Source of the DNA: a virus | Virus record (IMG/VR): IMGVR_UViG_3300010430_000252 | Coordinates: 1-36,269 of that record | DNA length: 36,269 nt | Direction: 5' to 3' (one strand) | Part shown: positions 4,175 through 33,932 of the stretch, in pieces | How the letters are laid out: each line of letters opens with the position of its first letter | Position numbering within the stretch: position 1 is the first letter of the stretch | The notes under the pieces: model-generated | Database searches by the model: none | Told to the model about the DNA's origin: nothing | Seen by the model: the letters and a program-made list of their open reading frames with translations, nothing else | Translations under genes and position numbers: made by a program

Positions 4175-4552
4175 TCAATATGTCCAATCTGCCGGACGTG
4201 TCGCCGCATCGTGGCCAACGTCCAGATGTGTAAATGTTTTGCCATGACCTATGCCGAGGAATCCAAGCGCGTAGGCATGCCGCTTTAGCTCGTATTTGCT
4301 CGATGCGTCAGGGGTGGATATATCAGCGGCCCGCCCTTGCCCGTGTGCGCCCGGTGTGGGCTTGTTCCGCTCCTCGGGGTGGTCAGGACACCTAAACCCG
4401 CTTGTGACCGTCATGGGCTTGCCGTAGGCCGCTCTGAGGGCGTCTAGCGCCATGACAAGGCCGGGGGTCACATCCGCACGGCCACAGCGGGTTGGGCATT
4501 TACATTCAAACTCTTTTTCAGTAAAATAGCGCACTTTTGACCAGTCAACCAT
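4175..4552 (-). CDS. endolysin, peptidase M15-type D-Ala-D-Ala endopeptidase, 125 aa
   Basis: Cell-wall hydrolase of the M15 (VanY/M15_3-like) family that would cut peptidoglycan cross-links at lysis. Visible are an N-terminal F-x-CKCP..CG element (residues 16-23), SGFRCP (51-56) and zinc ligands H70 and D77 in GAHGQGRAADIS. The third ligand is H109 in THLDVG. Start is ATG 4552 with GGAG eight bases upstream, just 13 bp from the divergent HNH gene start. A diverged copy of its first 14 codons lies beyond that HNH gene (5076-5117), indicating that the locus was rearranged. No signal peptide, so export needs the adjacent holin. Confidence 0.85.
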   Translation of the reverse strand: MVDWSKVRYFTEKEFECKCPTRCGRADVTPGLVMALDALRAAYGKPMTVTSGFRCPDHPEERNKPTPGAHGQGRAADISTPDASSKYELKRHAYALGFLGIGHGKTFTHLDVGHDAATRPADWTY

Positions 4553-4565
4553 AGGAGGCTCCAGA
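4553..4565. promoter_or_regulatory. near-palindromic Shine-Dalgarno shared by two divergent genes
   Basis: Only 13 bp separate the ATG of the leftward endolysin (4552) from the ATG of the rightward HNH gene (4566). The stretch AGGAGGCTCCAGA gives AGGAGG to the rightward gene and, read on the other strand, GGAGCCTCC to the leftward gene. No promoter can fit between them, so each transcript must start inside or beyond the other gene. Confidence 0.7.
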
Positions 4566-5075
4566 ATGAAGAAAAAGAGACGAAAAAGCGCCAGCATGAT
4601 ACGACTTTGCCGATCGTGTGGCGAGCCGTTTCACACATATATTTCTCAAAACAAAAAATATTGTTCGCGAACTTGCTCTAGCGTGGGCAGACGAAAGAAG
4701 CAGCGTAGGTGCGAGCAGTGCGGGGAAATGTTTACGCCTTGTCGGGCTGACATCCCCGGTCGGTTTTGCTCTAAGAAATGTCGGGGTGTTTCTGATCGCA
4801 AGCCTCGGCTGATACGTGGTGCGAAGCGGAACTATTACGCGGTTTTTGCGCCCGATAACCCAATGGCCACCAAGCAGGGATATGTTATGGAGCACAGAAT
4901 CGTTATGTCCGAACATATTGGCCGACCACTGCGGCGCGGTGAAATAGTTCACCACAAAGACGGCAATGGTTTTAACAACAACATAGAAAATCTTGAGCTT
5001 CTCAACGATTCTGACCACAAGCGCTACCATGCCAACATTGCGCCGAGAAACGCGCTTGGGCGGATGACAAAGTAA
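4566..5075 (+). CDS. free-standing HNH homing endonuclease, 169 aa
   Basis: Two zinc-ribbon-like repeats come first: C15/C18 with C33/C37, then C49/C52 with C68/C72. An HNH (HNH_3-type) nuclease core follows with EHR (109-111), VHHKDGN (128-134), NNIENLELL (138-146) and H151/H156. Such enzymes nick or cut unoccupied sites and spread their own gene. It is the only rightward gene within the leftward block. It interrupts the lysis region and is flanked by two versions of the endolysin 5' end, the signature of a mobile intruder. Start ATG 4566 has AGGAGG eight bases upstream. Opposite-strand frames over it are shadows. Confidence 0.9.
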   Translation: MKKKRRKSASMIRLCRSCGEPFHTYISQNKKYCSRTCSSVGRRKKQRRCEQCGEMFTPCRADIPGRFCSKKCRGVSDRKPRLIRGAKRNYYAVFAPDNPMATKQGYVMEHRIVMSEHIGRPLRRGEIVHHKDGNGFNNNIENLELLNDSDHKRYHANIAPRNALGRMTK

Positions 5076-5117
5076 TTCTTCCTCATGGAACCATTTCACC
5101 TTCGACCAATCAACCAT
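5076..5117 (-). pseudogene. vestigial 5' end of an older endolysin gene, cut off by the HNH gene
   Basis: On the minus strand, ATG 5117 begins MVDWSKVKWFHEEE, 14 codons ending at 5076. The intact endolysin starts MVDWSKVRYFTEKE; 10 of 14 residues agree but many codons differ. Similarity ends exactly where the HNH stop codon (5073-5075) begins, after which the frame runs into nonsense. The vestigial start overlaps the stop of the upstream gene, the normal coupled junction in this genome. This was therefore probably the native endolysin start, before the HNH gene plus a foreign endolysin replaced the rest. Confidence 0.7.
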
Positions 5118-5373
5118 CGTTCATCTCACTTCCGAGCGCGATATAGCCCACGCCGTCAACATAGTCATCGTCGTTCTTTTGACCATAGCACGTTCGGCTT
5201 ATCTTCAATAGTGCCATCATCATCGTCACGTCCTTTGCCGATAGCGTGCAGCCTGTATAGGCAGACCAGAGCGCCGCTATTCGCTCAAAGGATTGCTTCG
5301 GATCGCCGTGGCTTGCGCGCCGGTCCCCGTTAATCAATGTTTCAGCGGTGGCGAGTACGGTGGATGCTTTCAT
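5110..5373 (-). CDS. DUF6378-like phage protein, 87 aa
   Basis: Starts ATG 5373 in an ATGA overlap with the metallophosphoesterase stop. Distinct residues are ETLINGDRRASHGDPKQSFERIAALWSAY (split: ETLINGDRRASHGD, then SFERIAALWSAY). A helical core follows (DVTMMMALLKISR), then a conserved-looking ending DDYVDGVGYIALGSEM. This is the pattern of small phage proteins annotated as DUF6378, with NGDR..HGD..... and D.D.Y.D..GY. Those are thought to be related to MazG-like or nucleotide-handling helical folds, though function is unproven. Its stop lies inside the vestigial endolysin start. Confidence 0.75.
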   Translation of the reverse strand: MKASTVLATAETLINGDRRASHGDPKQSFERIAALWSAYTGCTLSAKDVTMMMALLKISRTCYGQKNDDDYVDGVGYIALGSEMNDG

Positions 5374-32313: not shown

Positions 32314-32701
32314 GGGCCTTCGCCTCCAATTCGACTAATCGGCGTTCTACCTCATCATCCGACATGCCGCGCGTCTCTATCGGCCCGCCATCCTTGCCGG
32401 TCAATTCTTCAACCTTGGTTTCCTTCCAGCCCATACGGGTTTTAGACCACCAAATCGCTGCCGTCGTGTCGCCGTTGATAGCCTTGTTGTAAAGCGTCCC
32501 GCCAATCTTGGCGTTTGCCTTGACCGCTGCCGTGTCTAGTTCCCTGCGGAAGTGTTTACGCAACGTCTTGTCGTCGATGCCGTCACGGATAACGAGGCAG
32601 ATACTCTCCTGCGGAATACCGACCGCGCTCATTTGCTCGACCAGTTTGCGCTCGTCGTCAGTGGGCTTGAAAGAAGGCTTTGTGACTTTTTTAGGCGGCA
32701 T
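32294..32701 (-). CDS. terminase small subunit, 135 aa
   Basis: The frame opens further upstream, but ATG 32701, inside the last codons of the methyltransferase, gives the expected MPPKKVTKPSFKPTDDERKL start. A helix-turn-helix-like DNA-binding region follows (VEQMSAVGIPQESICLVIRD, DDKTLRKHFRRELDTAAVKA). A second helical part comes next (GGTLYNKAINGDTTAAIWW SKTRMGWK) and then an acidic tail for contacts with the large subunit. It recognises the phage DNA for packaging. The adjacent large-subunit gene makes the assignment firm. Confidence 0.85.
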   Translation of the reverse strand: MPPKKVTKPSFKPTDDERKLVEQMSAVGIPQESICLVIRDGIDDKTLRKHFRRELDTAAVKANAKIGGTLYNKAINGDTTAAIWWSKTRMGWKETKVEELTGKDGGPIETRGMSDDEVERRLVELEAKARGSDGG

Positions 32702-33932
32702 CTCTTTTGTTAGTGGGGAAAATCTCTCCACTACCCTCTAAAACTGCTTGATTTCCGGTGAAGTTTTGCCAGCGTTTAACTGCTACATCGACGTAAGCGG
32801 GCGACAGTTCGATGGCATAAATGCAGCGCCCCGTCATTTCCCCGGCGATGATTGTCGTGCCACTCCCTGAGAATGGTTCATAAACCGCTTGGCCGGGGCT
32901 TGAGTTGTTCTCGATTGGTCGCTTCATGCATTCAACGGGCTTTTGCGTGCTGTGACCTGTCTCAGATTTAATGGGCTTATCAATCTGCCAAAGTGTTGTC
33001 TGCTTTCTATCACCGCAATAGTGACCTGTTTTGTTTTTCTTTACCGCATACCAGCAAGGCTCGTGTTGATAGTGATAATCCCCACGGCTGATAGCAAATT
33101 GCTGCTTGGCCCATATAATCTGCGAACGTATTTTAAATTCACAAACCTCTAGGCTATCCACAACGGTCTTGGCATGCTGACCAGCATGCCAAACATACGC
33201 AACATCGCCGGGGAATAAAGCCCAAGCCTCAGACCAATCGGCGCGGCTATCGTTCTCAACCTTACCTATGGCGCTCGCGCCATAGGGCTTGCCATTGGCT
33301 CTGTCTGCCTCATTCCGCCAATTCGCGTCATACTCCACACCATAAGGCGGGTCCGTGACCATTAGGTGCGGCGAAACCCCACTTAATAGCTTCTCAACAG
33401 CGTCTGCATCCGTACTATCCCCGCACATCAGCCGATGCTTGCCGAGTATCCAAACGTCACCGAGTTTCGTTACCGGATCGTCTGGCACGTCAGGCACTTC
33501 GTCTGGATCGGTCAGCCCTTCGGTCTTTTCAACGAATATGTTGGCTAACTCGTCATCGCTGAAACCAATCAACGAAAGGTCAAAGCCTTCCTCTTGCAGC
33601 CCGACCATTTCAAGCGCGAGCAGATCCATATCCCATCCGGCGTTTAATGCCAGTTTGTTGTCCGCGATAATGTATGCCTTGCGCTGTGTGGGCGTCAGGT
33701 GCGCGAGTTCGATTGTCGGGACTTCGGATAGCCCTAACTTCCTTGCTGCTAACACGCGGCCATGACCGGCGATTATACCGCCTTCCTCGTCCACTAGGAC
33801 AGGGTTGTTAAAGCCAAACTCTTTGATGCTCGCCGCAATCTGCGCCACCTGCTCATCGCTATGCGTTCTGGAATTTGACGCATACGGGATGAGCTTTTCG
33901 ATTAGTGTGTTTTTGATTGCAAGGTTAGGCAT
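32691..33932 (-). CDS. DNA (adenine/cytosine-N4) methyltransferase with ParB-like N-terminal domain, 413 aa
   Basis: Residues 1-130 are a ParB/Srx-type domain (IPYASNSRTHSDEQVAQIAA, GGIIAGHGRVLAARKLGL at 51-68). The rest is a class beta amino-methyltransferase: catalytic DPPYG (194-198) precedes the AdoMet motif EPFSGSGTT (352-360), with HSTQKPVE before it. It would methylate an exocyclic amino group in a short DNA motif, protecting phage DNA or altering host regulation. The ParB-MTase fusion is common in phages. ATG 33932 overlaps the GcrA-like stop by eight bases. No restriction endonuclease gene adjoins. Confidence 0.9.
   Translation of the reverse strand: MPNLAIKNTLIEKLIPYASNSRTHSDEQVAQIAASIKEFGFNNPVLVDEEGGIIAGHGRVLAARKLGLSEVPTIELAHLTPTQRKAYIIADNKLALNAGWDMDLLALEMVGLQEEGFDLSLIGFSDDELANIFVEKTEGLTDPDEVPDVPDDPVTKLGDVWILGKHRLMCGDSTDADAVEKLLSGVSPHLMVTDPPYGVEYDANWRNEADRANGKPYGASAIGKVENDSRADWSEAWALFPGDVAYVWHAGQHAKTVVDSLEVCEFKIRSQIIWAKQQFAISRGDYHYQHEPCWYAVKKNKTGHYCGDRKQTTLWQIDKPIKSETGHSTQKPVECMKRPIENNSSPGQAVYEPFSGSGTTIIAGEMTGRCIYAIELSPAYVDVAVKRWQNFTGNQAVLEGSGEIFPTNKRDAA

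Follow-up and report, generated by a model that had tools for sequence, protein, structure and literature searches.

An HNH endonuclease gene within the 5' end of a phage endolysin gene, with a leftover gene head and a probable donor head on either side

The stretch of DNA analysed here, referred to as the window, is a 36,269-base IMG/VR virus record (a metagenomic contig). In an operon on the minus strand of the window, an HNH endonuclease gene is placed within the 5' end of an M15 endolysin gene. The complete endolysin gene (4552-4175, minus strand) comes after the HNH gene and a vestigial endolysin head in the operon direction. The features of the locus are as follows.

5110-5373, minus strand: DUF6378 gene, the upstream partner, whose stop codon overlaps the vestige start by 8 nt (Pfam DUF6378, E 1.4e-29)
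5067-5117, minus strand: vestigial endolysin head, with 14 clear codons and DNA similarity as far as codon 17
4566-5075, plus strand: HNH endonuclease gene of 169 aa, antisense to the operon (Pfam HNH_3 and PHROG HNH families)
4553-4565, no strand: spacer of 13 nt, palindromic GGAGGCTCC as read from the sequence
4499-4527, plus strand: promoter-like TTTACA-17-TAAAAT (10/12 matches), within the replacement head and facing the HNH gene
4472-4552, minus strand: replacement head, codons 1 to about 26 of the complete endolysin, with 65% identity to the HNH-free relative L004 and a 6-nt indel
4175-4471, minus strand: body of the complete M15 endolysin, with 88% DNA identity to L004

The two endolysin starts of the original prediction are both in the sequence, the vestige as MVDWSKVKWFHEEE (5117-5076, minus strand) and the intact start as MVDWSKVRYFTEKE (4552-4511, minus strand). 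The vestige also keeps the coupled overlap with the upstream gene that had been claimed for it, 8 nt (ATGGTTGA) shared with the end of the DUF6378 gene.

The HNH protein belongs to the HNH_3 family (PF13392), with 38 bits against a curated cut-off of 24.8 over residues 110-153. Its HNH motif is intact and, as read from the sequence, it has two zinc-ribbon-like CxxC pairs; the gene is on the plus strand, opposite to its neighbours. The complete endolysin contains the M15 domain (Peptidase_M15_3, E 1.1e-12, residues 9-111) and matches PHROG 894, endolysin, with an E value of 1.6e-26. It is an M15 peptidase of a phage endolysin family, and its role in lysis is predicted. The palindromic spacer is a possible ribosome-binding site common to the HNH gene on one strand and the endolysin gene on the other. 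Four promoter-like sites for the HNH gene were found in the region, compared to 1.1 expected by chance.

When the intact endolysin was searched against its own contig in a tblastn-type search, the best place was the gene itself and the second best was 5117-5028 on the same strand (E 1.6e-5). A local alignment of the vestige with the intact head has 15 of 28 positions identical, and a translated comparison of the left and right HNH flanks scored 75, the maximum in 30 shuffles being 56. The similarity had been described as ending exactly at the HNH stop codon, but it extends three codons into the 3' end of the HNH gene. Over codons 14-17, GAATTACTTTGT in the window and GAATTTATCTGT in L004 agree in nine of 12 bases, and with endolysin-like DNA reaching codon 17, the HNH stop codon and the last two HNH codons appear to be built from antisense endolysin DNA. 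Weak matches past codon 18 are probably due to chance, because the DNA there encodes an RN..GR tail that is common to the Vibrio HNH protein discussed below. An exact 29-base vestige pattern had no match in viral contigs, and a tblastn search of phages with the 41-residue vestige frame produced chance matches only. Read on through the antisense of the HNH gene, the vestige frame has no stop for 190 codons (4545-5117, minus strand), and its TGA overlaps the intact ATG just as the DUF6378 stop overlaps the vestige start. The openness of this frame was dropped as evidence, since its chance is about 0.07 given the codon usage.

As the original prediction had anticipated, there are HNH-free relatives with an endolysin that starts at the position of the vestige. 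Two separate IMG/VR records, L004 and L005, which are apparently the same phage across this stretch, have a DUF6378 gene (79% amino acid identity) followed directly by a full endolysin gene (86-88%) without an HNH gene, and this endolysin begins where the vestige does and has the same 8-nt overlap. The HNH gene is thus present in the window and absent from the same site in L004/L005 and in the Vibrio relatives L053-L055, which is the presence/absence pattern expected of free-standing homing endonuclease genes.

The intact endolysin gene of the window is a mosaic. In codon-aligned DNA, it is 65% identical to L004 in codon columns 1-27 and 88% identical thereafter, with the best breakpoint at ungapped nucleotide 78 (2dLL 20.4). 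A generally variable head fails to explain this mosaic, because L004 and L024, both of which are HNH-free, show no such contrast (68% in the head and 61% in the body). The vestige and the new head are about equally distant from L004, and so the window sequence alone does not tell which of the two is foreign. The word foreign is used for the new head on the basis of linkage and the head/body contrast rather than of a tree, and 14-26 head codons are too few for separate head trees.

A second case has a clearer pattern. Among 50,697 phage records, Vibrio phage 1.030.O, a named marine phage that has its own host strain, gave the best tblastn match to the window HNH. Over their length, the two HNH proteins share 42% identity, and the 1.030.O gene is directly upstream of an M15 peptidase gene and overlaps it. 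Just ahead of the HNH gene is a short frame, MNTAHFQEKEFT*, and the complete gene starts MEGISTAHFKPEEFMCKCGCG, with its start codon within the last conserved HNH codons. HNH-free Vibrio relatives have MNTAHFKEKEF or a similar start at the native place. Compared to four of these (1.086.O, 1.174.O, 1.124.O and PS15B), the 1.030.O stump is identical in 28-30 of 33 nt, while the head of the complete gene is only 53-62% identical and its body 87-95%. The best breakpoint between head and body is at nucleotide 45 in all four comparisons (2dLL 19.4-32.5), and the closest head to the new one is that of H188. A native relic that resembles the relatives, together with a diverged working end, is clear in 1.030.O; in the window, compared with a single close relative type, the two heads do not separate in this way. 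The stumps of the two phages end within about two aligned codons of one another. A promoter-like site for the HNH gene lies right at the stump end in 1.030.O, where two were found and 3.4 expected; the sites pointing at the HNH gene in both phages are only suggestive.

It had been proposed that the HNH gene arrived together with a foreign endolysin. The comparisons support a foreign head but not a whole foreign endolysin, since the body is close to that of HNH-free relatives in both phages. In each of them, it is just the first 15-26 codons or so that stand apart, so the piece that moved with the HNH gene would be the head and not the whole lysis gene.

These patterns fit homing with one-sided co-conversion, and we think it likely, from the sequence comparisons, that a homing HNH gene invaded the 5' end of the M15 endolysin, that the donor head was co-converted and that the recipient head was left as a stump. 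The nuclease would cut or nick the recipient endolysin near codons 12-17 (both the activity and the site are deduced), and repair would copy the HNH gene plus the adjoining donor head. The left-hand junction would form at or near the break, and the right-hand junction by homologous recombination within the endolysin body near a C-x-C/C-G motif. The head of the recipient would stay behind on the upstream gene, and the donor head joined to the recipient body would make a complete chimeric endolysin, with transfer presumably from donor to recipient. The head/body breakpoints in both phages, as judged by sequence comparison, are consistent with flank co-conversion. Compared to most HNH-free relatives, the complete endolysin genes of the two phages carry codon indels close to C-x-C/C-G, and these may give protection. 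The altered sequence of the new head, with a codon indel at the presumed target, may likewise make it resistant to the nuclease. Relative to the endolysin, the HNH gene runs in the same direction in 1.030.O but in the opposite direction in the window; therefore, either one homing mechanism must allow both orientations or the two insertions arose differently.

A local duplication would also account for two heads flanking the HNH gene within a single genome. In this explanation, the HNH insertion produced a second endolysin head, after which the two copies diverged, with nothing to keep the vestige from decaying; fast divergence would be expected of a released stump. However, the part of 1.030.O that matches the HNH-free relatives is the stump (as noted above), and the working copy has the divergent head, separated from the body by a sharp breakpoint. 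In the window, too, it is the head of the working copy that stands out from its body. We consider a local duplication unlikely.

Another explanation is ordinary phage mosaicism, with a recombination hot spot at endolysin heads and an HNH gene that landed at a junction without causing the exchange. The genes around the window locus are indeed mosaic relative to L004. In addition, the endolysins of two Vibrio phages that have no HNH gene, H188 (L057 1495-1836) and PS15B-5 (L058 1458-1799), are 73% identical in their heads and 97% in their bodies. This contrast reflects either a head exchange or a lost HNH gene, and it indicates that heads can be exchanged without an HNH gene being present now. 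However, mosaicism leaves the second head unexplained, and it does not account for both stumps ending at the same place in the gene.

The specificity of the arrangement also argues against mosaicism. We scanned 103 M15 loci for a repeat of the head no more than 1.3 kb upstream; several of these loci come from the same record and overlap. The window ranked first by a wide margin, with a score of 71 against a shuffle maximum of 35-37. Phage 1.030.O ranked second with 37 against 32, a score that is modest alone, and so the argument for this phage depends on how well its DNA matches that of its relatives. The other loci were at or near the shuffle maximum. Clear head duplications among the 103 loci are thus found only at the two with an HNH gene, and these two are also the only ones with an HNH of this type; a profile scan of 80 further M15 contigs found none with this HNH. 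Tandem starts in HNH-free relatives, which had been named in advance as telling against the original prediction, were seen at none of the HNH-free M15 loci in the scan. Taken together, we regard HNH-independent mosaicism as quite improbable. One other locus in the scan, that of phage CBW1004C-Prop1 (L046 818-1881), has a GIY-YIG gene shortly ahead of an M15 peptidase gene. It was considered as a further case and set aside, because no head duplication stood out there.

A group I intron, with the vestige and the body as exons and the HNH gene plus the second head spliced out, is very improbable. Related HNH genes are annotated or arranged as intron-borne, for example, in the dUTPase intron of Carjivirus communis and the split lysin of Javan616. 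However, the Rfam search found no intron at the locus (weak evidence, because the same search also missed the Carjivirus communis and Javan616 loci), and the insert has only 13 nt (window) or about 58 nt (1.030.O) outside of HNH and endolysin coding sequence, so that neither the search nor the non-coding length points to a ribozyme core around the nuclease gene. Furthermore, the window HNH gene is antisense, and the complete gene needs no splicing. An assembly chimera of two phage genomes would be conceivable for an IMG/VR contig from a metagenome, but it is scarcely credible given the same anatomy in 1.030.O, a phage with its own host strain.

Related HNH genes also occur at the start of another type of gene. 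Staphylococcus phages IME-SA4 and PG-2021_4 and Streptococcus phages Javan74 and IPP24, all of which are Firmicutes phages, encode HNH proteins that are 35-44% identical to that of the window, located at the head of a YopX-family gene (L074 1426-2104, L069, L160 and L161). In IME-SA4, the leader and first codons ahead of the HNH gene match HNH-free YopX genes in 21-22 of 30 bases, the YopX gene resumes right behind the HNH gene, and the HNH stop codon is within YopX DNA. The HNH gene follows codon 4 in the clearest case, and by their sequences all appear to be simple insertions close to codon 4; the four may represent one lineage. As apparent simple insertions, perhaps of a single lineage, they support the targeting of gene heads and do not count as extra beheadings. 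A comparison of the flanks around other HNH relatives revealed nothing convincing beyond the window. In Javan616 (L071 976-3361), the annotation splits the lysin into two pieces, and a related HNH gene lies between them; the arrangement is intron-like, and there was no Rfam intron match.

Selfish nucleases that enter essential genes must avoid killing their host, and the usual answer is splicing. A more speculative extension of the homing explanation, which we put forward tentatively, is that the HNH gene moves together with the replacement head as a single mobile cassette. Its nuclease would target a conserved stretch at the start of an essential gene and bring along a nuclease-resistant substitute for the head that it destroys, so that the phage would survive without an intron or intein and then depend on the cassette.

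The nearest likeness known to us is with the mORF gene hybrids of fungal mitochondria. PMC3630166, citing Paquin et al. 1994, describes them in atp6 of Allomyces macrogynus and in atp6, atp9, cox2 and nad3 of Glomus sp. In these hybrids, a core gene has been broken by a mobile endonuclease gene and made whole by a diverged foreign version of the lost end, and the native end persists as a relic close to the sequence of relatives (PMC3630166). The hybrids described there have the C-terminal end replaced and involve LAGLIDADG or GIY-YIG elements in mitochondria, whereas here the 5' end of phage lysis genes is replaced and the nuclease is of the HNH_3 type. With the N-terminal end replaced, the phage loci are a mirrored likeness of the mORF hybrids and not members of that class.

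Among phages, free-standing HNH nuclease genes within genes include T4 mobA with the gene 60 bypass segment and mobE in nrdA of Aeh1, and a nearby 50-nt insert in T4 is proposed to protect against the nuclease (PMC2988022, PMC5009743). The split T4 and Aeh1 genes function as two polypeptides, whereas here the gene is whole again by means of a substitute head. In a further known homing case, donor flank is carried with the nuclease gene, as here, but in the endolysins the co-carried stretch would replace an amputated coding head and leave a stump. Homing endonuclease genes of phages are known to gather near or within essential and core genes, and HNH-3 genes are found inside interrupted genes (PMC10448857). 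The cases considered from that paper involve splicing or neighbouring placement, unlike the duplicated and replaced gene head described here. We found no phage case of a replaced gene head in the open-access literature, a search that mostly leaves out subscription journals.

If the homing explanation is true, phages would have another route by which a nuclease can enter an essential gene, namely by bringing a spare, altered gene end, and it would explain how homing drives mosaicism at the edges of lysis genes. Because 1.030.O is a named phage with HNH-free relatives, the Vibrio case is directly testable.

Elsewhere in the window, a single protein encoded at 32691-33932 on the minus strand has family matches to ParB-like nucleases as well as to DNA methyltransferases.
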